64,000 bases of DNA from an uncultured Paracoccaceae bacterium. GTDB lineage: Bacteria > Pseudomonadota > Alphaproteobacteria > Rhodobacterales > Rhodobacteraceae. Position 1 is the first letter of the stretch. Each line of letters opens with the position of its first letter. Of the stretch, positions 49,558 through 64,000 are shown piece by piece. The notes below the pieces were generated by a model. It ran no database searches. It was not told where the DNA came from and saw only the letters and a program-made list of their open reading frames with translations. The position numbers were made by a program, and so were the translations under genes. The stretch spans positions 1-64,000 of the forward strand of contig CAJXSR010000015.1 in assembly GCA_913061275.1 (NCBI GenBank). The letters are read 5' to 3'.

Positions 49558-50415
49558 TCAAGGTTTTAAACGGTCTTTTGTTGGTAGTGGGTTCGGGCGC
49601 ACAAGGCCTGCAAAATCAAACAAACCCTGATCTAATAAATGGCTTGGGCGTGCATTCATTAAGCTGCGAAACATAACCTGTCGCCGTCCAGGGCTGTTGG
49701 CTTCCCAACCATTCAAAATCGCTTTGACCTGTTGGCGTTGCAACCCGTCTTGTGAGCCACAAAGGTCACATGGAATAATAGGGTAATTCATCGCATTTGA
49801 GAACTTTTCACAATCTTTCTCAGCGACAAAGGCAAGTGGGCGATAAACCAATAAATCACCTTCGTCATTCACCAGTTTTGGCGGCATGGTGGCAAGCCGC
49901 CCGCCATGAAATAGGTTCATAAAAAAGGTTTCAAGTATATCGTCGCGGTGATGCCCTAATACGACTGCCGAGCAGCCTTCCTCTCGGGCAATACGGTACA
50001 AATTACCACGACGCAGGCGAGAGCACATTGCACAGTAAGTGCGCCCTGCGGGTACTTTTTCTTTGACGATAGAATAGGTGTCTTCAAATTCAATGCGGTG
50101 GTCTACACCCATCTTTTTCAAGAACTCTGGTAGGACAGTTGCCGGGAAATTCGGTTGGCCTTGATCTAAATTGCAGGCTAATAGTTCGACAGGTAAAAGG
50201 CCGCGCCATTTTAATTCGTGCAATACTGCCAAAAGCGTGTAGCTATCTTTACCACCTGACAAACATACCAACCACTTGGCACCACGTTCGATCATGCCAT
50301 ATTCTTCGATGGCTTCACGGGCTTGGCGAACAATGCGTTTGCGAAGTTTTTTGAACTCTGTTGTTGAAGGCGCACCTTCAAATAAAGCGTGTATATCGGT
50401 TAATTCGCTTAACAT
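49558..50415 (-). CDS. ttcA: tRNA 2-thiocytidine biosynthesis protein TtcA
   Basis: Thiolates C32 of certain tRNAs. PP-loop [13 protein letters not shown] near residues 53-65 and the two CxxC motifs [12 protein letters not shown] and [13 protein letters not shown], which bind a 4Fe-4S cluster. Length 285. It lies 62 bases upstream of yidC on the same strand. Confidence 0.95.
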
Positions 50416-50530: not shown

Positions 50531-51403
50531 TTAGGTGAATTTTCGAAACAAGCGTGTCGTGTCGAATAAAGCGTCAAGGCGTTCAAAACGGGTTTGCGCA
50601 TCGGGCCAGTTTTCTTCTTGTGTGGCCGCAACTAAGGCTTCCAGCAACATTAACGTGGCGACATTCGAATCCCATGCTGATGGTATTTCGCTCCAGCAAT
50701 TAAACGTATGTGTGGCAACTTTGGCGACGGGTGATACCCATTGATCTGTCATCAGAATGATAATCACACCACGTGATGCGGCCAGTTCTGCCAAACGTAA
50801 AAGGTTGGTTTCATACCTGCGAACATCAAATATGACCAACACATCATTCTTTTCCATATCCAACACGTAATGAGGCCATGTGGCAGATGAAGATGTCATA
50901 TGCGTCATGCGGGGCCGGATCGCTTGCAGATGTGTGAAAGCGTATTCAGCTAAAGATCGGGTGATTCGGCCACCAACGATGTATAATTGTTGTTCCGAGC
51001 TTGACATTTGCTTTGCCGCTAGGTTGAAACTTTCTGCATCCACATGCGCAAAGGTCTGACGTAAATTGTGCATTACCGCATCGGCCAAGCGGTTTAGTAT
51101 GTGCGACGCAGGGGCTTCAGCTGCCCAATTTTCACGCCTTTGTGTGGGGCCAGAAATTATCGCCTCTAGTTCATTTCGCAAAGCTTGGTGGAATTGTGGA
51201 AAGCCTTTAAATCCAAGCTTTTGAACCATACGTGCAACGGTAGGCGTTGAAACATCAGCCGTTGCTGCGACAATGGTAATAGATGCCAGACCCGCTGCTG
51301 GGTAATTCTCTAGAAGAGAGTTCGCAAGTTTGCGCTCGGATTGTGTTAATGTTTCGTAGCGATCACGGATTAATTCGCGGACCACAGGGGTTGATTTAGG
51401 CAA
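50531..51403 (-). CDS. MurR/RpiR family transcriptional regulator
   Basis: A 290-residue regulator: N-terminal HTH (SITIVAATADVSTPTVARMVQKLGFKGFPQF, read in part), then a SIS domain (LYIVGGRITRSLAEYAF, VLVIFDVRRYETNLLRLAELAASRG), which usually binds a phosphosugar but in many relatives senses other ligands. Divergent from the glutamine-synthetase-like gene, so it likely controls that cluster. Confidence 0.92.
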   Translation of the reverse strand: MPKSTPVVRELIRDRYETLTQSERKLANSLLENYPAAGLASITIVAATADVSTPTVARMVQKLGFKGFPQFHQALRNELEAIISGPTQRRENWAAEAPASHILNRLADAVMHNLRQTFAHVDAESFNLAAKQMSSSEQQLYIVGGRITRSLAEYAFTHLQAIRPRMTHMTSSSATWPHYVLDMEKNDVLVIFDVRRYETNLLRLAELAASRGVIIILMTDQWVSPVAKVATHTFNCWSEIPSAWDSNVATLMLLEALVAATQEENWPDAQTRFERLDALFDTTRLFRKFT

Positions 51404-51486
51404 AAGCTTATCCTGTTGTGGTTTTAGTTAATACTATGCGTTGAAGGTTATTTATACCAGCATACAATGTTTTATCATATATGTGT

Positions 51487-51524
51487 GAAAATATATTGAC
51501 AGCGTTGCAAATAGAGGAAAATAT
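51487..51524. promoter_or_regulatory. paired GAAAATAT boxes, possible RpiR operator
   Basis: GAAAATAT occurs at 51487-51494 and 51517-51524, 30 bases (three turns) apart, in the 203-base gap between the divergent RpiR and ligase genes. A TTGACA at 51496-51501 overlaps the gap, but the spacing to a -10 is poor. The gap is AT-rich, so chance is possible. Confidence 0.35.
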
Positions 51525-51606
51525 TTATACAATTCGGATGTGGATGTAGCGGGCAGTGCAACTGTCAACATAAAGACCACTTCTCAGCTAGAATAGGAAC
51601 TTTGAC

Positions 51607-52968
51607 ATGCCAAACCAGATGACTTTTGATGAATTAAAAAACCAAGTTACCAGTGGTAGTATAGATACCGTTTTGGTCTGTATTATTGACATGCAAGGTC
51701 GCCTGATGGGGAAACGCTTTGTTGCCCAGCATTTTGTAGACGGCGGTTGGGAAGAGACGCATTGCTGTAATTATCTGCTGGCTACTGATTTAGAGATGGC
51801 CACACCTGACGGATATGCTTCTACAAGTTGGGAAAGCGGTTATGGTGATTATGTGATGAAGCCTGACATGGATACATTGCGCCCCGTGCCTTGGCTGGAA
51901 GGTACTGTGATGATCTTGTGTGACGTGTTGGATCATAACACTCACAAACCGGTGCCACATTCGCCCCGTGCTGTGTTGAAAAAGCAAATAGCACGTCTTG
52001 CCGATATGGGGTTCGACCCGATGATGGCAACCGAACTAGAGTTTTTCTTATTTGAGAAAAGCTTTGACGATATTCGTAAATCGGGCTTCCGCGACCTTGA
52101 GCCAATTAGCGGATACAATGAAGATTACCACATCTTCCAGACCACTAAAGAAGAGCATGTGATGCGCCCAATCCGCAACTATCTATATGCTGCTGGCCTG
52201 CCGATTGAAGGCACCAAAGGTGAGGCTGAAGCAGGTCAAGAAGAGCTGAATATCAAATACGGTACTGCCATGGATACGGCAGATCACCATACGATCGCCA
52301 AACATGCGATCAAAGAAATCGCGTGGCAACAGGGCCATGCGGTAACGTTCCTGCCGAAATGGGATCATAATCGTGTTGGGTCTTCCTCACATGTGCATCA
52401 ATCTTTATGGAAAGGCGGCAATCCTGCTTTTTATGATAAAGACGCCGAACTTGGTATGTCTGATCTGATGCGAACATATATGGGTGGTTTGCTGAAATAT
52501 GCGCCTGACTACATGTATTTCTTAGCCCCTTACATCAACAGCTATAAACGGTTTTCCAAAGGCTCATTTGCCCCCACACGCACCATCTGGTCAGTAGATA
52601 ACCGTACCGCAGGTTTCCGCCTGTGTGCGGCTGGTAGCAAAGCAGTACGGGTGGAATGCCGCATTCCAGGGTCAGACATGAACCCATACCTTGCAATGGC
52701 TGTGCAACTGGCAGCAGGCATCAAGGGTATTGAAGATCAAGAAAAGCTGGATCCGCCATCAGAGGGGGATGCTTATGCAGGTACAGGCGGCTTTATCCCG
52801 CAAAACCTGCGTGATGCCAAAGATGCCCTGAAAGGATCGACAATGTTACGCGAAGCTTTGGGTGATGATGTGGTTGACCACTACACCCGTGCAGCAGAAT
52901 GGGAGCTGGAAGAATTTGAAAAAGTCGTGACCGATTATGAAATTGCACGTGGATTTGAACGAGTTTAG
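51607..52968 (+). CDS. glutamine synthetase family protein, likely gamma-glutamyl-amine ligase
   Basis: A 453-residue type I glutamine-synthetase fold. The beta-grasp start FDELKNQVTSGSIDTVLVCIIDMQGRLMGKR (read in part), ATELEFFLFE (metal Glu), GEAEAGQEELNIKYG, GSSSHVHQSLW (metal His) and RIPGSDMNPYLAMA are present. The VxDMQGRLMGKR start and divergence from canonical GlnA suggest a PuuA/GlnA4-like enzyme joining glutamate to an amine. The neighbouring alcohol and aldehyde dehydrogenases point to an amino alcohol as substrate; this is inference. Confidence 0.85.
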   Translation: MPNQMTFDELKNQVTSGSIDTVLVCIIDMQGRLMGKRFVAQHFVDGGWEETHCCNYLLATDLEMATPDGYASTSWESGYGDYVMKPDMDTLRPVPWLEGTVMILCDVLDHNTHKPVPHSPRAVLKKQIARLADMGFDPMMATELEFFLFEKSFDDIRKSGFRDLEPISGYNEDYHIFQTTKEEHVMRPIRNYLYAAGLPIEGTKGEAEAGQEELNIKYGTAMDTADHHTIAKHAIKEIAWQQGHAVTFLPKWDHNRVGSSSHVHQSLWKGGNPAFYDKDAELGMSDLMRTYMGGLLKYAPDYMYFLAPYINSYKRFSKGSFAPTRTIWSVDNRTAGFRLCAAGSKAVRVECRIPGSDMNPYLAMAVQLAAGIKGIEDQEKLDPPSEGDAYAGTGGFIPQNLRDAKDALKGSTMLREALGDDVVDHYTRAAEWELEEFEKVVTDYEIARGFERV

Positions 52969-53050
52969 ATAACAAAACAGTAGTCGCACTGGTTTAGTGT
53001 CAGTGCTTTTTGCCTTTGAATGGCATATTTTTGGTTGACGCGAGGTTCTT

Positions 53051-54433
53051 ATGACCAAGATTTTGAAATGTATATCACCGATTGATGGTTCGGTTTACGC
53101 TGAACGGCCATGCCTTAGCATGCAAGAAGCGACAGATGCAGTCGCGCGGGCAAAAACCGCACAAAAAGAATGGGCGGCACGCCCTTTGAAACAGCGTATT
53201 GAATTGGTTATGGCAGGTGTTGCCCGTGTCGGTGAGATGGGGGATGAGGTTGTAACTGAGCTTGCCCATATGATGGGTCGCCCAACACGTTATGGCGGCG
53301 AGTTTGGCGGCTTTAATGAGCGCGCGTCACATATGGCAAAAATCGCTGAAGATACTTTGGAACCTATCTTGGTTGAAGAAAGTGATACTTTCAAACGGGT
53401 TATTAAACGTGAGCCGCATGGTGTTGTGCTGGTCGTTGCCCCTTGGAACTACCCATATATGACGGCGATCAACACAGTTGCGCCTGCTCTGATTGCAGGG
53501 AATGCTGTTGTTTTAAAACATGCAACGCAAACCTTGCTGGTTGGCGAGCGTATGGCGCAAGCATTTCATGAAGTGGGTATACCTGCGGATGTGTTTCAAA
53601 ACGCATTTCTGGATCACGGAACTACATCCGATCTGATTGCAGCAAATTTGTTTGGCTTTGTGAATTTCACGGGGTCTGTTGGTGGTGGTAAAGCAATGGA
53701 AATTGCAGCAGCTGGTACGTTTACAGGTGTTGGTACTGAACTGGGTGGCAAAGACCCAGGCTATGTGATGGAAGATGCTGATCTGGATGCCGCTGTTGAT
53801 ACGCTTATTGATGGTGCGATGTTTAATGCAGGCCAATGCTGTTGTGGCATTGAACGCATTTACGTTCATGAAAGCCTGTACGATCAGTTTGTCGCCAAGG
53901 CGGTTGATATTGTGAATGGATATAAACTGGGTAACCCATTGGATGCTGAAACTACTATGGGTCCAATGGCCAATGTGCGGTTTGCTTCCGAGGTTCGCGC
54001 CCAAATCGATGAAGCTTTGGCCGCAGGTGCTGTCGCACATATTGAAACAGCTGCCGAAGACGATGGCGGAGCCTATCTGACGCCGCAAATTCTTACAAAC
54101 GTTACCCATGATATGCGTGTGATGCGCGACGAAAGCTTTGGCCCTGTTGTTGGCATAATGAAAGTATCTTCAGATCAAGAGGCCGTTGCGTTGATGAATG
54201 ACAGCGAGTTTGGTCTGACCGCATCCCTTTGGACACAAAACGTGGAACGTGCCGAAGCTTTGGGTGCGCAAATTGAAACTGGCACTGTGTTTATGAACCG
54301 TGCTGATTATCTTGACCCTGGTCTATGCTGGACTGGCTGTAAAAATACAGGTCGTGGCGGCGCATTATCTGTTATCGGCTATCATAATTTAACCCATCCT
54401 AAATCGTATCATTTGAAAAAGGTGACATCATGA
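53051..54433 (+). CDS. NAD(P)-dependent aldehyde dehydrogenase
   Basis: A 460-residue aldehyde dehydrogenase. VAPWNYPYMTAINTVAPALIAGNAVVLKHA (read in part), the active-site Glu in GTELGGKDPGYV and the catalytic Cys in FNAGQCCCGIERIYV are intact. Eighty-two bases behind the ligase gene and overlapping the alcohol dehydrogenase by four bases. Expected to oxidise the aldehyde made by its neighbour. Confidence 0.94.
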   Translation: MTKILKCISPIDGSVYAERPCLSMQEATDAVARAKTAQKEWAARPLKQRIELVMAGVARVGEMGDEVVTELAHMMGRPTRYGGEFGGFNERASHMAKIAEDTLEPILVEESDTFKRVIKREPHGVVLVVAPWNYPYMTAINTVAPALIAGNAVVLKHATQTLLVGERMAQAFHEVGIPADVFQNAFLDHGTTSDLIAANLFGFVNFTGSVGGGKAMEIAAAGTFTGVGTELGGKDPGYVMEDADLDAAVDTLIDGAMFNAGQCCCGIERIYVHESLYDQFVAKAVDIVNGYKLGNPLDAETTMGPMANVRFASEVRAQIDEALAAGAVAHIETAAEDDGGAYLTPQILTNVTHDMRVMRDESFGPVVGIMKVSSDQEAVALMNDSEFGLTASLWTQNVERAEALGAQIETGTVFMNRADYLDPGLCWTGCKNTGRGGALSVIGYHNLTHPKSYHLKKVTS

Positions 54434-55575
54434 CCCTTGTAGGAAACTGGTCTTATCCGACCACTATAAAATTCGGCAATGGCCGTATTAAAGAATTGCC
54501 AGAGGCCTGCGCCGCTTCTGGAATGAAAAATCCCTTGTTGGTTACTGACAAAGGGCTGGCCAGTTTACCGATTACTTCGGAAGCATTAGATATTCTAGAT
54601 GCCGCTGGTTTGGGTCGTGGTCTGTTTTCTGAAGTTGACCCGAACCCGAATGAGCTAAACCTTGAAGCAGGTGTTGCCGCCTATAAGGCTGGTGGCCATG
54701 ACGGGGTTATTGCATTTGGCGGTGGCTCTGGCTTGGATTTGGGTAAAATGGTTGCCTTTATGGCCAATCAAACCCGACCGATTTGGGATTACGAAGATGT
54801 GGGTGATTGGTGGACACGTGCAGATGCAGATGCGATTGCGCCGATTATTGCGATACCAACCACGGCTGGAACAGGCTCAGAAGTGGGGCGAGCTAGCGTT
54901 ATCACCAACTCTGTCACCCATGTGAAAAAAATCATCTTTCACCCCAAAGTGTTGCCCGCTGTGGTGATTTGTGACCCTGAACTGACTGTTGGAATGCCAA
55001 AATTCATCACAGCTGGTACAGGTCTTGATGCTTTTGCCCATTGTGTCGAAGCATTCAGCAGCCCACATTATCACCCGATGTCACAAGGTATGGCACTGGA
55101 AGGCATGCGGTTGGTTAAGGATAATCTGCCACGCGCATATGCAGACGGCACTGACCTAGAAGCACGGGCCCATATGATGTCGGCAGCGGCAATGGGTGCG
55201 ACTGCATTTCAAAAGGGTTTGGGGGCAATTCACGCACTTAGCCATCCAATCGGGGCGGTATACAATACGCATCATGGTACCACCAATGCGGTTTGTATGC
55301 CTGCGGTTCTGGCGTTTAACGCACCTGCCATCGAAGAGCGGTTCGATATGGTTTCTGCCTACTTGGGTATCTCTGGCGGCTTCAAGGGGTTTTGTGATTT
55401 CGTTCAAACATTTAATGACGACATGGGCATTCCACGCACATTATCCGATCTTGGGGTTGGAACCGATAAGATAGATGAGCTGACAAAAATGGCGTTGAAT
55501 GACCCAAGTTGCGGCGGCAATCCGATTGAATTAACCGCTGAAAATACGAAACAGTTGTTTATAGATTGTATCTAA
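54430..55575 (+). CDS. iron-containing alcohol dehydrogenase
   Basis: A 381-residue group III dehydrogenase. FGGGSGLDLGKMVAF is the NAD-binding turn; PTTAGTGSEVGRASVI, GLDAFAHCVEAFSS and HALSHPIGAVYNTHHG hold the iron-binding Asp and His. Start ATG 54430 overlaps the aldehyde dehydrogenase stop, so the two steps are coupled: alcohol to aldehyde to acid. Confidence 0.94.
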   Translation: MTLVGNWSYPTTIKFGNGRIKELPEACAASGMKNPLLVTDKGLASLPITSEALDILDAAGLGRGLFSEVDPNPNELNLEAGVAAYKAGGHDGVIAFGGGSGLDLGKMVAFMANQTRPIWDYEDVGDWWTRADADAIAPIIAIPTTAGTGSEVGRASVITNSVTHVKKIIFHPKVLPAVVICDPELTVGMPKFITAGTGLDAFAHCVEAFSSPHYHPMSQGMALEGMRLVKDNLPRAYADGTDLEARAHMMSAAAMGATAFQKGLGAIHALSHPIGAVYNTHHGTTNAVCMPAVLAFNAPAIEERFDMVSAYLGISGGFKGFCDFVQTFNDDMGIPRTLSDLGVGTDKIDELTKMALNDPSCGGNPIELTAENTKQLFIDCI

Positions 55576-55582
55576 CCGAATA

Positions 55583-55605
55583 TAGGGCACCCATTGGGTG
55601 CCCTA
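55583..55605. terminator. convergent palindrome between ADH and hydrolase genes
   Basis: A perfect inverted repeat TAGGGCACCCA, T, TGGGTGCCCTA; its right edge is the hydrolase stop codon. Placed where a bidirectional terminator is expected, though the T-tracts are weak on both sides. Confidence 0.6.
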
Positions 55606-56394
55606 ATCTAACAGGGTAGCCACCATAGCAGAATTTGGGTTTTTTAGCCCGTCGATTACATCAAAATGATGTTTTTTATCCTCTATAATCAAAGCGGTAC
55701 CATCCCATACTTGCGGCATTATTTTGCTTTGATTAATGAACTCTGGCCGTTCATCCCCCCCAACCCAACATGTTACTCTGGCTGAATTGATCGGTGTACT
55801 TAAGTACGGGCTTTCACTGATTGCCTCATCTTCAGATAAACGTAGGGTTTCGTTCATCTTGGTTTTCAGCAAATTGCGTAGATCATGAACACCGCTAATA
55901 GATACTGTGTTTTCAATTCGGTTTTGAATAGTAGCAGGTAAGGGGCTGTTTTTACAAAGCATCCTTGTTGCCAAATGCCCGCCTGCAGAGTGACCAATAA
56001 TACGGATGGGGCCGTCAAACTTGTGGGCAACATATTTGATGGCTTCAGAAATTTGATTTGTTATTTCACTGATACGTGCGCTTGGGGCAAGGGTGTAAGA
56101 AGGAATTGCAACAGCCCAATTATGTGCAAGCGGCCCATGTGCAAGATCAGAAAAATACGACCGATCCAGTCGCATCCAATACCCGCCATGAATGAAGATA
56201 ACCACGCCTTTAGGGGGCGTATCAGGCCAAAATACATCTAGGCATTCGCGTGGTGAAGGGCCATATGGCAAATCTAGATCATGCACCACACCACTATTTT
56301 GATATGCGCGTGCGCGTGCGGCCCAAGTATCAAAATATGCCAGCGCGTTCTTGACGTGGCCTACATTATCAAAAGCGTCATCCCAGTCAGTCAT
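55603..56394 (-). CDS. alpha/beta hydrolase (esterase/kynurenine formamidase-like)
   Basis: A 263-residue alpha/beta hydrolase. FIHGGYWMRLDRSYFSDL holds the oxyanion motif HGGYW, GHSAGGHLATRML the nucleophile Ser, and HFDVIDGL near the end the catalytic His. The HGGYW form resembles kynurenine formamidase and related esterases/amidases. Convergent with the alcohol dehydrogenase. Amide hydrolysis could in principle close the gamma-glutamyl pathway, but nothing here shows that. Confidence 0.85.
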   Translation of the reverse strand: MTDWDDAFDNVGHVKNALAYFDTWAARARAYQNSGVVHDLDLPYGPSPRECLDVFWPDTPPKGVVIFIHGGYWMRLDRSYFSDLAHGPLAHNWAVAIPSYTLAPSARISEITNQISEAIKYVAHKFDGPIRIIGHSAGGHLATRMLCKNSPLPATIQNRIENTVSISGVHDLRNLLKTKMNETLRLSEDEAISESPYLSTPINSARVTCWVGGDERPEFINQSKIMPQVWDGTALIIEDKKHHFDVIDGLKNPNSAMVATLLD

Positions 56395-56569
56395 TTCTTT
56401 GGTTTACCCTTCAGTGTAGATTTAGAATGGCTGATCTTTTGACTAATTTCAAATAATCATATGGTATCTATTATGTGATATATGGATAGTGTTGAAAACA
56501 TAGGTTGCGCCGAACTGCTTAGGCTTTAGGCTGACTAATAATTGACCATGAGAGTTACAGGAGAATGTC

Positions 56570-56806
56570 ATGAACGTTATATTTGTACAGTTAAGGTGCA
56601 AACCGGGAAGTGCATACAAAGTTGCTGACGCACTTTATGAGCTTGAGATCGTTTCACAACTATTTTCCACAAGTGGCGATTGGGATTTGTTGGCGCAGAT
56701 TTATCCGCCAAAGGATGTGGATGTTGGCAAATGGGTTAATGATAATGTTCTAACGATCGACGGGATAGAGCGATCACTTACAACCCTGACTTTCAAAGCA
56801 TTCTAG
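56570..56806 (+). CDS. stand-alone Lrp/AsnC ligand-binding domain protein
   Basis: A 78-residue protein equal to the RAM (Lrp/AsnC effector) domain without a DNA-binding part: VIFVQLRCKPGSAYKVADALYELEIV, STSGDWDLLAQIYP. Such proteins bind small ligands, often amino acids, as oligomers. AGGAG precedes the ATG by about 8 bases. Sits between the hydrolase and tctC; target unknown. Confidence 0.85.
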   Translation: MNVIFVQLRCKPGSAYKVADALYELEIVSQLFSTSGDWDLLAQIYPPKDVDVGKWVNDNVLTIDGIERSLTTLTFKAF

Positions 56807-56923
56807 GGTCTGTCGTCTCTAAGGCAAAGACACTTACTCAGATCAGTATTGCAATTTAACGAAAGTTAAGCGTTACTTGTCGTTTATGCTGGGTATTTCC
56901 TGCATATAACTTGGGAGAAAGAA

Positions 56924-57892
56924 ATGACACATCACTTTTTCAAAGCATTCGTTATGGGTGCTGTACTAACTATTAGCGCGCCTACATCTGTAATAGCTGC
57001 GGAATGTATCGCACCTGCGAACCCTGGTGGGGGATGGGATTTCACGTGCCGCCAAATTGGTAAAATCATGTATGAAATAGGGGCAGTTGATAAACCTATT
57101 CAAGTAACAAATATGGCAGGCGGTGGTGGCGGTCTTGCTTATGGTCATGTTGTGAATGAACGCGACACGGATGCTGATTTAATTGTAGCAGCATCTTCGG
57201 CTACATCCACAAGACTTGCGCAAAACGCCTATGCGGGGATGACCGCAGATCAGGTACGTTTTGTGGGGGCAATCGGTGCTGATCCAGGCGTTATTGTTGT
57301 GGCGGCCGACAGCCCTTTTAAAACCCTTGGTGATATGGTTGATGCGATCAAAGCAAACCCAGGTTCCGTTGCTTTTGCAGGCGGTTCGGCGGTTGGCGGA
57401 TTTGACCATCTTAAGCCGTTGATGATATTACAGCGCGGCGGTTTTACCGATATTACGAAAGTAAAGTATATCGGTCTTGACGGCGGGGCTGATGCCATCA
57501 CGCAAACAGTTGGCGGTTTTACACAAGTAATGACGGGCGACATGTCAGAGATTGTTGGCTTTTTGAAAGCTGGTGAAATTCGGGTTTTGGCAGTTCTTAC
57601 AGATGAGCGTGTGCCGGGATTTGAAAAAATACCAACCGCAAAAGAGCAAGGGTTTGATGTTGTAGCTGTAAATTGGCGTGGTCTGTATGTACCTAAAGGC
57701 GTTAGCGATGATACATTCAATGAGTGGGCATCAAAGCTGCAACAAGTCGCTGATAGCGATGCTTGGAAAGAAGCGATGGTTGCAAACGGCTTAGCCCCGT
57801 TTACCAAAGTTGGTGGTGATTTCCAGTCATATGTTGATGGGCTGGTTACAGAAATTCGCCAGTTATCAAAAGACATAGGGGTTATTCAATAA
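56924..57892 (+). CDS. tctC: tripartite tricarboxylate transporter, binding protein
   Basis: A 322-residue periplasmic binding protein of the Bug/TctC family with a signal peptide (cleaved after TSVIAA, near residue 26). The mature start ECIAPANPGGGWDFTCRQI is the family's typical PGGGWD segment. Its stop overlaps tctB by one base. The ligand (citrate, other carboxylates) is not predictable. Confidence 0.92.
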   Translation: MTHHFFKAFVMGAVLTISAPTSVIAAECIAPANPGGGWDFTCRQIGKIMYEIGAVDKPIQVTNMAGGGGGLAYGHVVNERDTDADLIVAASSATSTRLAQNAYAGMTADQVRFVGAIGADPGVIVVAADSPFKTLGDMVDAIKANPGSVAFAGGSAVGGFDHLKPLMILQRGGFTDITKVKYIGLDGGADAITQTVGGFTQVMTGDMSEIVGFLKAGEIRVLAVLTDERVPGFEKIPTAKEQGFDVVAVNWRGLYVPKGVSDDTFNEWASKLQQVADSDAWKEAMVANGLAPFTKVGGDFQSYVDGLVTEIRQLSKDIGVIQ

Positions 57893-58332
57893 TGCCCAGT
57901 GATCGGATCTTTGGTCTGGTCGCACTTATGACGGCGCTTGCGTTCATCGCAAGTGCCACACAAATCCAGACAAGCTTTTTATCAGACCCAGTTGGGCCGA
58001 AAATGTTTCCCATTCTGATAGGTGTGGTGGCTGTCATTGGCAGTCTTAGTCTTATTTTACGCCCAGACCCGAATCCAGATTGGCCCGCAATGCGCAGCTT
58101 TATGGCCTTGCTTGTTGCTGTTGTGGTTTTGATTGGGTACGCATTTGCGCTAAAACCTTTTGGCTTTTTGATCCCAACCGCAATAACGGCTGGTATATTA
58201 AGTTACCAAATATCCCCAAAGATAAATGCGGCAATGATGTCGGGTCTTGGCCTGTCAGTTGGATTGTTTGGGCTGTTTAAGTTTGCTTTAGGTCTTGGGC
58301 TGGTAGCATTTCCCAGATTTCTGACAGGGTAG
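57892..58332 (+). CDS. tctB: tripartite tricarboxylate transporter, small membrane subunit
   Basis: A 146-residue TctB protein with four hydrophobic segments (for example FLSDPVGPKMFPILIGVVAVIGSL, read in part). The GPKMFP motif is typical. One-base overlap with tctC; six bases to tctA. Confidence 0.9.
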   Translation: MPSDRIFGLVALMTALAFIASATQIQTSFLSDPVGPKMFPILIGVVAVIGSLSLILRPDPNPDWPAMRSFMALLVAVVVLIGYAFALKPFGFLIPTAITAGILSYQISPKINAAMMSGLGLSVGLFGLFKFALGLGLVAFPRFLTG

Positions 58333-58338
58333 AGGCGT

Positions 58339-59844
58339 ATGGAAATTATTGATAATCTGGCATTAGGATTTAGCATAGCCCTTTCACCCTACACATTAAT
58401 GCTCGCAGTAATCGGGTGCTTTTTAGGGACAATCATCGGGGCCTTACCAGGCTTAGGCCCATCAAACGGTGTGGCGATCTTAATCCCTTTGACTTTCACA
58501 CTAGGGTTGGATGCAACTTCTGCATTGGTATTGATGACTTCGGTTTATTATGGTGCGATGTATGGCGGGCGCATTTCGTCTATTTTGTTGAACATACCAG
58601 GTGATGAACCTGCGTTAATGACCACGTTGGATGGCTATCCTATGGCAAAGGCGGGGCGTGGGGGTGATGCACTTGTATTATCGGGTGTTGCGTCTTTTGT
58701 AGGGGCTTTTTTGGCAACTATCGGATTGATGTTACTGGCACCAATGCTGGCGCGGGTGGCTTATTTGTTTGGCCCTGCTGAGTATTTTGCACTTTATATG
58801 CTGGCGTTTTGTACTTTGGGCGGGATGGCGTCGAATAATCAGGCAAAGGCTGCGATTGCATCTTGTATCGGGCTGGGTATTGCAATGATCGGTGTCGATA
58901 ACAGCTCTGGTTTGCCACGCCTTACAGGGGGCAATCTGCACCTGATGGACGGGGTTGATTTTTTGGTGGCGATTGTCGGGCTATTTGCAATTTCTGAGGT
59001 TTTCTTTTTTATTGAAAGCCATGGAAAAGGATCATCCATTGGTATTAAGCTCGAAAAAGTAACGATACCGTGGAAAGATATTTATGAAACTAAATGGACG
59101 ATGTTACGTGCCAGTGGTATCGGGTTTATTGCAGGTATTTTGCCTGGTGCCGGTGCCTCTTTAGGTAGCTTTTTGGCCTATATGAGCGAAAAGTCTATTG
59201 CGGGTGAAAAAGGCGGTTTTGGAACGGGTGTTCCCAAAGGGGTTGCGGCACCAGAAGCTGGAAATAATGCCGCTGCAGGGGGGGCTTTAGTGCCCATGCT
59301 TACATTAGGTGTTCCAGGGTCAGGTACGACAGCAGTTTTATTGGCCTTACTAATGACCTTGAATATAACCCCGGGCCCGACATTGTTTACCGACAGACCA
59401 GAGGTGGTTTGGGGGCTAATTGCATCATTACTGATCGCCAATGTGGTTTTGTTGTTGATGAACGTGCCGATGGTCAAAATATTTGTGCGTATTTTACAAG
59501 TTCCAGCGTGGATACTGTTGCCAGGTGTGACGATGGTTTCTTTTGTTGGTATTTATTCTTTGTCGGGTAGCTATTTTGACTTGGTTCTAATGGTAGGGTT
59601 TGGGGCATTAGGGTATGTCTTGCGCAAACTAGATATACCAACAGTACCTGTAATTTTGGGCATTTTGTTAGGCGGTCATATGGAAGATGCACTGCGGCGG
59701 GCAATGGTATTATCTGATGGAGATGTTGCATATCTGGTGTCATCACCCATAGCGATTGTATTATGGGTGGCCGCGATCCTTGGGTTTGTTGCACCAATGA
59801 TGTTGCGAAAATTTTTAGAAAAACCACAACGGGTAACGGACTAG
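58339..59844 (+). CDS. tctA: tripartite tricarboxylate transporter, large permease
   Basis: A 501-residue TctA permease with about 12 helices. GTIIGALPGLGPSNGVAILIPL and GILPGAGASLGSFLAYMSEK are the two repeat motifs, SVYYGAMYGGRISSILLNIPGD the intervening signature. Drives uptake with TctB and TctC. Its stop overlaps the convergent deacetylase stop by four bases. Confidence 0.95.
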   Translation: MEIIDNLALGFSIALSPYTLMLAVIGCFLGTIIGALPGLGPSNGVAILIPLTFTLGLDATSALVLMTSVYYGAMYGGRISSILLNIPGDEPALMTTLDGYPMAKAGRGGDALVLSGVASFVGAFLATIGLMLLAPMLARVAYLFGPAEYFALYMLAFCTLGGMASNNQAKAAIASCIGLGIAMIGVDNSSGLPRLTGGNLHLMDGVDFLVAIVGLFAISEVFFFIESHGKGSSIGIKLEKVTIPWKDIYETKWTMLRASGIGFIAGILPGAGASLGSFLAYMSEKSIAGEKGGFGTGVPKGVAAPEAGNNAAAGGALVPMLTLGVPGSGTTAVLLALLMTLNITPGPTLFTDRPEVVWGLIASLLIANVVLLLMNVPMVKIFVRILQVPAWILLPGVTMVSFVGIYSLSGSYFDLVLMVGFGALGYVLRKLDIPTVPVILGILLGGHMEDALRRAMVLSDGDVAYLVSSPIAIVLWVAAILGFVAPMMLRKFLEKPQRVTD

Positions 59845-60590
59845 GGTATTGTGTATATTGTGGTCGGGCCGTTTTGCATAATTGTTAAGAATTGCTGTAT
59901 AAACGACGATATATCTTGGTCGTGAACAAGGTGATGCGTTAGCAATCCGAATGGCTCGGTGTTATCTGCCCGCCCCAATCGGCGATCCTGCATTTGTTTG
60001 ACGATTTCAGAAATAAGTATATCTGGTGCAACCAACCCACGCCCATCATGCCATGCGATCGGATCTAGGTGGGTGTTTATCTGGGTAAGCCCTATGGCTG
60101 CTTGTCTGGATTTACGCGGCGAATAGGTTGATAGGTTTGTATACCCAATCATAGCAAGATGTGCGTTTATATCTGGGTTGATACGGTTCCAAGGTGGTAC
60201 AAACATTGGCTTTAGGCGTGTGCCAAACATATTTTTTAACAGGTCTAGGCCCGCTTTGGCGTCTTCAATACAGGTTTCTATTGGGCGCGTCGCGCCGAAT
60301 TCTGCTTTTTTTATTCCCTGTGGTTCATGGTTTTGATGCGCCCAACCGTGTACTACAGGTATGACATTGGGCATAGCATGAATATGATCTGCAAGGGCAG
60401 GGGTTGCCAGTTTTGGGATTATGGCCAAATGAACAGGAATGTTTGTATCACATGCAATATTATCTAGCATATCAAGGGCAGGGGTTGGGGCAATAGCATC
60501 ATCATCACGCCACCAAATGGGCAAGATCATATCAACGTCACGCCACTGCTGAAATTCATTCTGTAAAGGTTGCCAGTTTATATTAATCAT
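59841..60590 (-). CDS. polysaccharide deacetylase (NodB-like) family protein
   Basis: A 249-residue NodB-type protein. WWRDDDAIAPTPALDML gives the metal Asp pair region, HLAIIPKLATPALADHI and VVHGWAHQNHEP the metal His pair. No signal peptide, so cytosolic, unlike classical chitin deacetylases. ATG 60590 overlaps the preceding glycosyltransferase stop (ATGA). Probably modifies a glycan or lipid-linked sugar with its neighbours. Confidence 0.83.
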   Translation of the reverse strand: MININWQPLQNEFQQWRDVDMILPIWWRDDDAIAPTPALDMLDNIACDTNIPVHLAIIPKLATPALADHIHAMPNVIPVVHGWAHQNHEPQGIKKAEFGATRPIETCIEDAKAGLDLLKNMFGTRLKPMFVPPWNRINPDINAHLAMIGYTNLSTYSPRKSRQAAIGLTQINTHLDPIAWHDGRGLVAPDILISEIVKQMQDRRLGRADNTEPFGLLTHHLVHDQDISSFIQQFLTIMQNGPTTIYTIP

Positions 60591-61726
60591 GTCTGCTTTA
60601 GCCAATTTGTTGCAATGCGAACGGTTTCATTTGCGCCATCAAATTCAAGACCTGCGATTTCAGCACCTTTCACAGACCGTGATGCATGTATGGATTCTAT
60701 CAAGCTTTGTGGGGTTAAAACATTAGCGGTTAAAACCGAAAACCCTGGATGTTTTGCAAGGCTTTTTGCGCGCAGGGTTTGTTCAACTTCACCGCCTTCA
60801 TCAAAGGGTATAAACACTGATGCCGTTCCTGTCTGCATCAGATCTAGGGCGGTATTATATCCACACATACTGACCGAACAGGCCGCATGGTGCAACATTT
60901 GGCGAAAATCGGGGCGTGTGCTTTCTATAGTTAAATTATTGCTTCTAGCGCGTTTTTTCAGCCGCTTTATTTCATTCGCAGAGTTCGACCCACCAACCAA
61001 AATACGCCAGTTTTGACTGGTATCTAGTGATGCGGCCTCAATGGCGCATTCAAATATGGCTTTGCCCACTGACCCGCCGCCTGCACTTACGATAATTTCA
61101 TTTTGTCCCTCTAAATCGGGGTGTGGCCCTGCTATGGTTGGGGCAACATAGCCAGTGTAATGCAGTTTCTTGGCCAACGTTTTTGACACTGGCCAGCTTT
61201 GATCTAATGGTGTGGTTGTGGGGTCGGAATGAACAAACACCCCATCATAATACTGGGCAATAATCTGATCCGCTTTTGTAGCTTTGGACGGCTTCGAGGG
61301 AGGGGCAAGAATATCGCGAATAGAGCTAAATATTGCGCATCTTTTCGTATTCGCTTTGGCTGTAGAAAGTAGGTTAAGGAACTCTGACGATAAGACGCGC
61401 CTGCCGAAGGGATATAATTCAGTTATCAGAAAATCAGGTTGAAGAGTGTTGAAAATGCCCTCTATATTGCGTTGGCGTTTTGTTAAATAAGCCTGATCCG
61501 CTGCCGTATCATGTGCTGTCAATAATGTGGAAAAATTGGTGCCATCAGAGCGCACAGCGGGTAGTTGATGCAAGGTGATGCCATCAGTGTTCAGGTGGGG
61601 TGCAGGCATTCCACCGCTTACCACATCTACAGTATGCCCATGTGCTACAAAAGCACGCGCCAAGTTTAATGCGCGGCTTAGATGGCCCGTTCCCAACAGA
61701 TGCGTGACTAGGATAAGAACCTGCAT
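60587..61726 (-). CDS. MurG/GT28-like glycosyltransferase
   Basis: A 379-residue GT-B enzyme. VTHLLGTGHLSRALNLARAFVAHGH is the N-terminal acceptor side; IIVSAGGGSVGKAIFE and HHAACSVSMCGYNTALDLMQTGTASVFIPF (read in part) the nucleotide-sugar side, as in MurG and related enzymes. Product unknown. Three bases downstream of the histidine phosphatase gene on the minus strand. Confidence 0.82.
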   Translation of the reverse strand: MQVLILVTHLLGTGHLSRALNLARAFVAHGHTVDVVSGGMPAPHLNTDGITLHQLPAVRSDGTNFSTLLTAHDTAADQAYLTKRQRNIEGIFNTLQPDFLITELYPFGRRVLSSEFLNLLSTAKANTKRCAIFSSIRDILAPPSKPSKATKADQIIAQYYDGVFVHSDPTTTPLDQSWPVSKTLAKKLHYTGYVAPTIAGPHPDLEGQNEIIVSAGGGSVGKAIFECAIEAASLDTSQNWRILVGGSNSANEIKRLKKRARSNNLTIESTRPDFRQMLHHAACSVSMCGYNTALDLMQTGTASVFIPFDEGGEVEQTLRAKSLAKHPGFSVLTANVLTPQSLIESIHASRSVKGAEIAGLEFDGANETVRIATNWLKQT

Positions 61727-61729
61727 GAT

Positions 61730-62311
61730 TTATCGCTTTTCCAGTCTGATGGGTTCATCATTTACGATGTTAAGATGGCCGTTATCAATTTCAATTAAGA
61801 ACAAACGATTACGTTTAATACGAAAAGGTGCAGGGCCGTCAAAGTCCCACCCATGTGCTGTTGCTAAAATCATCCGCATAATGCCAATATGGCAGACTGC
61901 GATTGTATCTGTTGTAAGTGCCATAACCCACGGTTTTATTCTGTCACATACATCTTGCGGGCTTTCACCATTTGGTGGGCGGTAATGCCAGCCCCAATGC
62001 TCTATATCCCGAAACCCCGATGATGGATCGGCCTTTAGATCAATACCACGCAAACCTTCCCAATCGCCCCAGTTCATTTCAATCAAGCAATCCACATGTT
62101 GCGGGGTGCGGTCTGCGATGATTTCAGCTGTTTGGCTTGCACGCTTTAACGGGCTTGAGATTAGGTCTGCATCAGCCCATTGGCTTGGTAGTTTATAGTT
62201 TTTCAATTCTGTAATAGCATCAGGATCAAGATCAATATCCGTACGCCCCTGAATGCGGCCTGCACGGTTCCAAGGTGTGTGTCCGTGACGGATAAGGGCA
62301 AGTGTGGTCAT
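61730..62311 (-). CDS. histidine phosphatase family protein
   Basis: A 193-residue phosphoglycerate-mutase-like phosphatase. LALIRHGHTPWNRAGRIQGRTDIDL gives the RHG catalytic His and the GRTD loop; CHIGIMRMIL holds the second His. Between two glycosyltransferase genes, with a four-base overlap upstream, so it may act on a phosphorylated sugar. Confidence 0.88.
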   Translation of the reverse strand: MTTLALIRHGHTPWNRAGRIQGRTDIDLDPDAITELKNYKLPSQWADADLISSPLKRASQTAEIIADRTPQHVDCLIEMNWGDWEGLRGIDLKADPSSGFRDIEHWGWHYRPPNGESPQDVCDRIKPWVMALTTDTIAVCHIGIMRMILATAHGWDFDGPAPFRIKRNRLFLIEIDNGHLNIVNDEPIRLEKR

Positions 62312-63405
62312 GGGCGTGATCCTATGAATGGCGATAAAATTGTTGAAAGGTTTTTAGAGGCTGCCCCAAAAAGATGGTTTTGTTTGATAAATTCAATACC
62401 AGCGCGGCTGTTTTTCTGCCAGAGGTCAGTGTTTGTTAACAAATTATCAACCGCATGGGCCATTTCGGTGGGTATATTAGGCGGGATAAGTATTGTTTCA
62501 GAGTTAATCACATCACAAACACCCGATAAATCCTGTGCTATCACGGGCAGGCCTGCGGCTTGGGCTTCAAGGTAAACCATGCCAAATGCCTCATCTACAC
62601 CCGGCCATAAAAAAACCGATGCGGATTGATACTGTTCTGCCAATTCCGCGCTTGTGCATTGTCCTAAGAAAGTCACTCGGGATTTGAACAGTGCAAACAG
62701 GTTTTCTATTTCAGGCCTTGCTGGCCCGTCACCTGCAATTTTTAAAGTCCAGTCGGTAGTTTTCAAAGTGGCAAGTGTTTTGGCTATCAATTTATATGAT
62801 TGGGTTTTGGCGCCTTTTCGTAACATTCCAACACATAAGATCGTGTTGCTTTTGGGTTTGGTACGTTTGGGGACAGATGAAACGCCTTGTGCCAAAAAGG
62901 GTGGTAGGTGGATGATTTTTTGACCCTTGGGCTTGTAATCCATCAAAGATTGGCGGTCGCGCTGGGTGAAATACAGAATTGCATCGGCTTTGTCACAGGC
63001 AGTTTCTGCAAGTTGCGCATAATACGCCCAAGGTCCGTGAAGCCGTTTTTTTGCCCGCGTTGCTTCTAATAAAATATAGGGAATACCCAACGCTTTTGAC
63101 ACAATCGGGCCTATCAGATCGGGGGATTTGTAGTAATTGTGATACGTAAACCAAAGGCGCCAATTTTGTTTTTGCCCCAAAGTTATCAACTTTTTGGCTT
63201 CAACCTTAGCCTGCGTTATTAATGCTAATTGTGCATCATCGTTACCTTTACCGTCATATGTGCGCAAATCAGACACCAGTTTTGCATCATAACCCTGCTC
63301 AATGGTATTCAGAGCTTCCAACACACCACGGGCAATTTCCCTATCGCCCGAAGGTGTCGGGTGGGTCGGGGGTTTGAGGGGAGCATAAAAAGCGATTGTT
63401 GGCAT
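62308..63405 (-). CDS. glycosyltransferase family 4
   Basis: A 365-residue GT-B (GT4) enzyme. The C-terminal half shows LKIAGDGPARPEIENLF, VTFLGQCTSAELAEQYQSASVFLWPGVDEAFGMVYLEAQAAGLPVIAQ (read in part) with the E-x7-E motif. Acts on an activated sugar; acceptor unknown. Overlaps the phosphatase gene. Confidence 0.9.
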   Translation of the reverse strand: MPTIAFYAPLKPPTHPTPSGDREIARGVLEALNTIEQGYDAKLVSDLRTYDGKGNDDAQLALITQAKVEAKKLITLGQKQNWRLWFTYHNYYKSPDLIGPIVSKALGIPYILLEATRAKKRLHGPWAYYAQLAETACDKADAILYFTQRDRQSLMDYKPKGQKIIHLPPFLAQGVSSVPKRTKPKSNTILCVGMLRKGAKTQSYKLIAKTLATLKTTDWTLKIAGDGPARPEIENLFALFKSRVTFLGQCTSAELAEQYQSASVFLWPGVDEAFGMVYLEAQAAGLPVIAQDLSGVCDVINSETILIPPNIPTEMAHAVDNLLTNTDLWQKNSRAGIEFIKQNHLFGAASKNLSTILSPFIGSRP

Positions 63406-63414
63406 ATGGTTAGT

Positions 63415-64000
63415 TTAGCGATTTGTGCCTAAGCTTTGCAAGCGGGCTGTCAGTTTTGTGATCCCTGCATCCATACCAAAATCTATTGTTAAACGATCAT
63501 ACGCAGCTTCTGCCATTGTGTTGCGCATTTCGGGTTTAGATGCCAGTTCTGTAATTGCTTCGGCAAGTTCATCGGAATTGTCATTTACCAATAAGCCATG
63601 GGTACCTGTTTCAATAAATTCAGGGATTGCAGAAACATTAGTTGAGATAATCGGAAGCTTTTGTGAAGCGGCCTCCATTAACACATTTGGTAGACCGTCA
63701 CGGTCACCATCATCGGCAATACGGCTTGGCAAAATGAATATATCGGCAACACGCAAGGCGTCTATTACAGCGGGTTGGTCACAGGCACCGTGCCAACTTA
63801 TACGGTTGGCAATCCCAAGTTTTTGGGCTTGGGTTAGCAGCGTTTCTTTCAAGCCACCGCCACCTATATGCGACCACTGCCAGTTTAGATCGGCAGGCAA
63901 TTTGGCCAGTGCATTTATCAACCTGTCAAAACCCTTTTTTTCCACCAAACGCCCAACAGATAGAAATTGTATTGGGCCGCTAGGGTTTGTCTTTGGTCGT
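63415..64000 (-). CDS. glycosyltransferase family 4 (3' part)
   Basis: The frame runs past the window edge, so the start is missing. LVEKKGFDRLINALAKLPADLNW, IGGGGLKETLLTQAQKLG and GLPNVLMEAASQKLPIISTNVSAIPEFIE (read in part) are the nucleotide-binding half of a GT4 enzyme. Nine bases upstream of the next glycosyltransferase in the same direction. Confidence 0.92.
   Translation of the reverse strand, partial: RPKTNPSGPIQFLSVGRLVEKKGFDRLINALAKLPADLNWQWSHIGGGGLKETLLTQAQKLGIANRISWHGACDQPAVIDALRVADIFILPSRIADDGDRDGLPNVLMEAASQKLPIISTNVSAIPEFIETGTHGLLVNDNSDELAEAITELASKPEMRNTMAEAAYDRLTIDFGMDAGITKLTARLQSLGTNR

Follow-up and report, generated by a model that had tools for sequence, protein, structure and literature searches.

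Introduction

The closest described system is the operon MED193_10021-10056 of Phaeobacter sp. MED193, which is reported to comprise RpiR, GGAH, EtoV, EtoW, EtoX, ligase, ALDH and ADH genes (PMC10132767). GGAH, EtoX, ligase, ALDH and ADH of this strain rose on phosphoethanolamine according to Table 2 of that article and its EtoX binds ethanolamine with a Kd of 7.9 uM; the evidence for the enzyme steps is induction and homology, and the legend of Fig. 5 presents the pathways as predicted (PMC10132767). Earlier work in C. salexigens and Agrobacterium tumefaciens is credited in the same article. The ethanolamine operon of C. salexigens, with Csal_0678 as the binding protein, is cited in PMC10132767, PMC6529630 and PMC9397018, and its pathway was predicted in silico as per PMC6529630. 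The same steps are given for GlnA4 of S. coelicolor in PMC6529630 and PMC9397018, where those of C. salexigens are described as predicted or proposed. The GlnA4 cluster of Streptomyces coelicolor, compared here by its description, is like the present system in the glutamylation of ethanolamine followed by proposed dehydrogenase, ALDH and hydrolase steps; it contains a short-chain dehydrogenase and the regulator EtuRI (PMC6529630).

In our study, the window, i.e. the whole stretch of 64,000 nucleotides that was analysed, has been found to carry RpiR, ligase, ALDH and Fe-ADH genes in the order ligase-ALDH-ADH, like MED193, and the host genome also has GGAH and EtoVWX. Unlike in MED193, the host GGAH and EtoVWX genes lie on another contig (C12) and an operator-like element is placed directly before the window ligase. 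This likeness to MED193 is one of published gene composition, the sequences compared being those of Ruegeria and Chromohalobacter. The window ligase is of the 5dm3 type like that of Chromohalobacter, in which two loci (L025 and L045) carry RpiR, GGAH, EtoVWX, GS, ALDH and ADH together, L045 in the order RpiR, GGAH-EtoV-EtoW-EtoX-GS-ALDH-ADH; unlike in the host, the Chromohalobacter operon is intact, and the two ligases share 75% identity. On this comparison of sequences, we consider it highly probable (about 90%) that the window cassette and the GGAH/EtoVWX genes on C12 constitute a split ethanolamine gamma-glutamylation pathway, with RpiR acting at position 51486. The pathway is already published and is an ordinary catabolic route with precedent, involving no new chemistry. 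Against the pathway literature searched, three things are new to us: the splitting of the operon, the scar left by the deletion and the mosaic make-up of the ligase.

Organization of the cassette and the proposed pathway

The gene of the RpiR/MurR-family regulator (HTH_6 and SIS domains) occupies positions 50531-51403 of the reverse strand, with a TTG start as listed, and the real start may differ. Divergent from it, the forward strand encodes a probable ethanolamine gamma-glutamyl ligase (gamma-glutamylethanolamide synthetase, equivalent to ETAGA of Phaeobacter MED193; 51607-52968), an ALDH putatively converting gamma-glutamylaminoacetaldehyde to gamma-glutamylglycine (equivalent to GAADDH; 53051-54433) and an iron-containing ADH putatively converting gamma-glutamylethanolamide to the aldehyde (equivalent to GETADH; 54430-55575), the start of which overlaps the ALDH end by 4 bases. 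The ligase was assigned from its Gln-synt_C domain and its match to 5dm3, and the two dehydrogenases from the Pfam families Aldedh and Fe-ADH together with their neighbourhood. Pfam agrees with the family of each of the 8 proteins scanned, and the open reading frames stand at the coordinates given; the divergent layout of RpiR against ligase-ALDH-Fe-ADH, as described in the initial annotation, is thus real. The divergent RpiR and the ALDH and Fe-ADH genes directly 3' of the ligase are features of the eto operon. An FGase-family GGAH and EtoVWX, which would belong to the same operon, were both absent between the window RpiR and the ligase, and the locus is classed by its pathway enzymes, not as a complete operon.

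Downstream of the ADH, an alpha/beta hydrolase gene (55603-56394; Pfam BD-FAE/Abhydrolase_3) lies on the reverse strand, convergent to the ADH. Beyond it, the TctC, TctB and TctA genes (TctCBA, 56924-59844) are on the same strand as the cassette. The hydrolase gene had earlier been included in the feature and has been removed from it, because just one of the 80 related loci (L057; best 80 of at least 596) has a relative close to the ligase.

In the proposed mechanism, ethanolamine would be taken up by the EtoVWX TRAP transporter encoded on C12, and the ligase would form gamma-glutamylethanolamide from ethanolamine, glutamate and ATP. The Fe-ADH would then oxidize the gamma-glutamylated alcohol to the aldehyde, the ALDH would convert the aldehyde to gamma-glutamylglycine, and the GGAH of C12 would release glycine and glutamate from it. 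RpiR is predicted to act at the 51486 element, and the operon which is usually single in relatives is here split into two loci. The genes with their families, the conserved neighbourhood, the presence of two loci, the scar of the deletion and the mosaicism of the ligase are seen in the sequence itself. We infer these reactions and the substrate in the host from the gene content, which matches the pathway described in PMC10132767 gene for gene. This match supports the gamma-glutamylation reading of the initial annotation as well as its guess that ethanolamine may be converted to gamma-glutamylglycine.

Identity of the ligase and conserved residues

In a search of solved structures, the ligase matched PDB 5dm3 over its full length with 816 bits. 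PDB 11zs, a second solved GS-like match, came next with 567 bits. With 1044 bits, the Chromohalobacter israelensis ligase (L045) comes close to identity with 5dm3. The window ligase is 92% identical to Amylibacter orthologues located in full operons. It clades with the same-genus eto ligases with a support of 100 and, together with the 816-bit match, is found to be of the 5dm3/ETAGA type.

Housekeeping GS and putrescine GS were both rejected as identities of this protein on the basis of NCBIfam model scores: it reached 241.1 bits with TIGR00653 (GlnA type I), below the cut-off of 429.15, and 193.3 bits with NF045547 (PuuA gamma-glutamylputrescine synthetase), below the cut-off of 650. A separate housekeeping GlnA is encoded on contig C18 (633 bits, above the TIGR00653 cut-off), and a type III GS on contig C6 scores above the cut-off of its own model. 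PuuA and IpuC are GS-like ligases that gamma-glutamylate an amine. The window ligase is unlike PuuA (193 vs 650 bits required) and has 36% identity to a plasmid gene annotated as ipuC.

After duplicates were dropped (11 of 119 GS, 9 of 106 ALDH and 1 of 85 ADH rows), Glu143, Glu145, Glu206, His262, His264 and Arg352 of the GS were found to be kept in 108/108 aligned rows, Cys264 and Glu230 of the ALDH in 97/97 and Asp200, His204, His268 and His282 of the ADH in 84/84. Going by the roles of such residues in the families, we take these positions to be catalytic, the four ADH residues being presumed metal ligands.

Neighbourhood of the ligase in related loci

A scan of species genomes gave at least 597 pattern matches, 596 of which encode a relative; the analysis was continued with the best 80. 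Neighbours were counted up to a distance of 6.5 kb, with identity floors of 38% for GGAH and RpiR, 35% for EtoV, 55-60% for EtoW, EtoX, ALDH and ADH, and 25-30% for TctC, TctA and the alpha/beta hydrolase. Among these best 80 of at least 596 loci, 66 have at least 5.5 kb upstream of the ligase; GGAH lies within 6.5 kb in 63 of them, EtoV, EtoW and EtoX are near the ligase in 55, and RpiR in at least 51, which is a lower bound as the 6.5 kb limit missed RpiR in some loci, e.g. L052. On the other side, 67 loci have at least 3 kb downstream, with an ALDH relative within the same distance in 63 and an ADH relative in 66. All seven partners (RpiR, GGAH, EtoVWX, ALDH and ADH) accompany the ligase in 43 of the 60 loci having both flanks, and none of these counts represents independent events, because the loci are related and were picked by ligase similarity. 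The neighbourhood is hence conserved, and since 11 of the 66 related loci also have no EtoVWX near the ligase, this linkage has not been treated as strictly defining.

Some of the loci showed variations. Four of them (L008, L041, L070 and L081) have the ligase and ADH without an ALDH of at least 60% identity within 6.5 kb; their ALDH may be elsewhere or replaced. An EamA-family transporter gene is found near the operon in L017, L027, L049, L060, L063, L070 and L087, and it is a candidate alternative transporter in L017, L070 and L087, where EtoVWX is absent. In L090, a plasmid of Salipiger abyssi, glyA and a gene for L-serine ammonia-lyase come after the operon, in keeping with glycine being the product.

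The second locus and the deletion scar

The GGAH, EtoV, EtoW and EtoX genes are present together on contig C12 of the same genome, at 60343-64164 on the reverse strand. In comparison to the Ruegeria proteins (L086), identities are 48% for GGAH, 62% for EtoV, 85% for EtoW and 90% for EtoX, and in four same-genus relatives the GGAH identity to Ruegeria is likewise 47-49%. The C12 GGAH belongs to the N-formylglutamate-amidohydrolase (FGase) family, two more genes of which occur in the genome, on contigs C41 and C3. These two additional genes, the low GGAH identity and the lack of linkage of GGAH and EtoVWX to the window cassette speak against the pathway reading. The C12 EtoX matched 4uab/4xf5, which we take to be the Chromohalobacter ethanolamine-binding protein, with 642 bits. 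None of RpiR, ligase, ALDH and ADH was found in the 19.9 kb around the C12 GGAH-EtoVWX genes. The hydrolase and the transporter thus seemed to be missing at the window because the operon is in two pieces, and both of them are encoded elsewhere in the genome.

Among the same-genus relatives, the operon is whole in G024 and G001, and in G012 it is intact as far as the contig reaches, to a point within the ALDH. In G006, RpiR stands with GGAH-GS-ALDH-ADH, and a more distant EtoX (63%) is found with EtoW on another contig. The C12 GGAH-EtoVWX genes occupy the usual operon site of the genus. Just past the C12 EtoX, the stretch L129 7560-7820 is 81% identical to the one just past the G024 ADH (L131 6512-6772), and the end of the C12 EtoX (L129 7844 onwards) is 87% identical to the end of the G024 EtoX (L131 10763 onwards). 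These two flank alignments show a clean gap in place of the ligase, ALDH and ADH genes, i.e. a deletion scar. Genes of a phosphatidylserine decarboxylase (PF02666) and an MTTB-family methyltransferase are also seen near GGAH-EtoVWX (L129 5044-5793 and neighbours), and homologous stretches adjoin the operon in G006 and G024.

Regulator and operator-like element

The window RpiR shares 65-74% identity with its counterparts in 24 related loci. It has 74% identity to the RpiR of Cochlodiniinecator (L009) and 52-54% to those of the four same-genus relatives; it is also the best match of the genome to the RpiR of the relatives (52%, the next being 29%). Between RpiR and the ligase, a 16-mer at 51486-51501 of the forward strand, including a -35-like TTGACA, probably serves as the RpiR operator/promoter, as suggested by the shared motif. 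It is exact in L009 and L010 and was taken from the window after the sharing with these two loci was seen. In the DNA upstream of RpiR, the window left aside, it occurs with at most 1 mismatch in 18 of the 24 loci whose RpiR is at least 63% identical, and in 1 of the 43 loci where RpiR is more distant (best 80 of at least 596; 2 of 70 RpiR rows were dropped as duplicates). The close-RpiR loci with 2 or more mismatches are L028, L035, L045, L058, L066 and L067. Shuffles of the window region came to a mean best of 5.8 mismatches to the 16-mer, with a 1st percentile of 4. Part of this conservation may be due to the promoter, since TTGACA is included in the 16-mer.

Another 16-mer is found upstream of GGAH in the genus loci L130-L133, exact in three and with 1 mismatch in L132, the motif having been taken from them. 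This genus-type 16-mer is present twice on C12 with 2 mismatches each (1st percentile of the shuffles, 4), and the best occurrence of the window-type 16-mer on C12 has 4 mismatches, no better than shuffles. Both shared 16-mers were spotted by eye in the output of a palindrome search, which itself gave nothing consistent as palindromic operators, and were then counted. The distribution of the motifs indicates that the cassette brought its own type of operator along and that the C12 piece kept the native type; any co-regulation of the two loci is putative.

Genomic site and proposed mosaic origin

The TtcA-YidC side of the window (TtcA at 49558-50415 and below) is kept in all four same-genus relatives. 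Beyond TtcA, the stretches covered in G001, G006 and G024 contained none of the window genes past 50415, and the G012 contig extends just 1.2 kb beyond the TtcA side. Therefore, as far as these relatives show, the cassette stands at a non-ancestral place. The block 50531-64000, without counterpart there in G001, G006 and G024, looks like an island. Beyond TtcA it also contains TctCBA and genes which by eye resemble a deacetylase and glycosyltransferases.

The genes of the cassette show different affinities. The ligase has 90-92% identity to the genus and groups with it in the tree with a support of 100, and the sister of the ADH is L009 (support 93.8, not starred; 90% identity). Holding the ligase with Cochlodiniinecator L009 was rejected (p 3.5e-5), as was holding the ADH with the genus (p 2e-4), and holding the ALDH was rejected neither with the genus (AU p 0.157) nor with L009 (0.317), these AU p-values being optimistic because the groups were named after the identities had been seen. 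Once named duplicates had been removed, 79 loci had all three genes; the trees cover 47 of them, from a set of 49 hand-picked loci of which 2 were without a gene, and were computed by a quick method without a mixture model.

At the nucleotide level, a genus-type tract lies in the ligase gene at 51660-52967 (ends approximate), where identity to L130/L131 is 84% vs 71% in the ALDH/ADH part. In 100-base steps over 51707-52906, the identities to three genus relatives range over 0.73-0.90, with a drop at either end, and those to L009 over 0.71-0.80; local alignments to the genus start at about 51654 and stop at about 52967-52976. The ligase-ALDH spacer has 82 bases in the window and in L009, the two spacer sequences giving no alignment, and 2 bases in G024. 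Thus, the window cassette looks mosaic, with a ligase of the genus type and with ADH, RpiR and operator-like element resembling those of Cochlodiniinecator. We would give even odds to a history in which an acquired cassette (RpiR, operator, ADH and perhaps ALDH) had its ligase gene exchanged for the native one by recombination, and in which RpiR, ligase, ALDH and ADH disappeared from the native operon. If this is true, the pathway runs from two loci, and either the foreign-type RpiR controls the native operator in trans or the GGAH and the transporter are without RpiR control.

Alternative explanations

The cassette could instead direct the same gamma-glutamyl chemistry at a different amino alcohol or at a short amine (3-aminopropanol, an isopropylamine-like compound or alaninol), with TctCBA importing the substrate. 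The position of TctCBA downstream on the same strand, the absence of the operon's usual transporter from the window locus and the 36% identity to the annotated ipuC gene would suit this reading, but the ligase is 92% identical to orthologues within full operons and 75% to that of Chromohalobacter, the genome retains EtoVWX, and an opposite-strand gene separates ADH from TctC. Moreover, TctC was found near the ligase in 0/80 and TctA in 1/80 related loci (L042; best 80 of at least 596), counts which, like that of the alpha/beta hydrolase, are lower bounds because some loci are short. Such a substrate is therefore quite unlikely. Even less credence can be given to the alpha/beta hydrolase (55603-56394) as the gamma-glutamyl hydrolase of the pathway, a role which the initial annotation had left to it as the only adjacent candidate. 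It is indeed adjacent and the sole hydrolase in the window cassette; however, it is convergent, matches the NCBIfam HaHSL_fam model (hormone-sensitive lipase) above cut-off, and has a relative near the ligase in the single locus mentioned above; the four nearest relatives keep it (57-65%) and their ligase on separate contigs. Further, an FGase-family GGAH exists on C12, and the alpha/beta hydrolase is probably not the dedicated enzyme. The alpha/beta hydrolase as pathway hydrolase and TctCBA as pathway transporter were both rejected, as they are non-conserved neighbours and GGAH and EtoVWX are present on C12.

The split might also be an assembly error hiding one intact operon in the organism, since the genome is a draft of 56 contigs and no counterpart of the window block stands at that site in the relatives examined. 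Against this, both pieces lie inside contigs (C12 of 99.7 kb and C15 of 87.5 kb), and the C12 junction runs on into genus-type flanking DNA. The genome has one close ligase copy (next best 35%), one EtoX (next 25%), one ADH at E <= 1e-60 and one eto-type RpiR (next 29%). Further, the genus has other types of ADH, RpiR and operator-like element than the window. An assembly error thus has little probability, and the preferred reading is that of an ethanolamine pathway split between the window cassette and C12.

Conclusion

This study reflects that a complete pathway in a genome can look incomplete at one locus, and such a case would escape searches in which the ligase has to be linked to EtoX or GGAH. 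The split provides a natural test of the fit between RpiR and operator after a regulator swap. The organism would be one more carrier for marine ethanolamine and phospholipid turnover.
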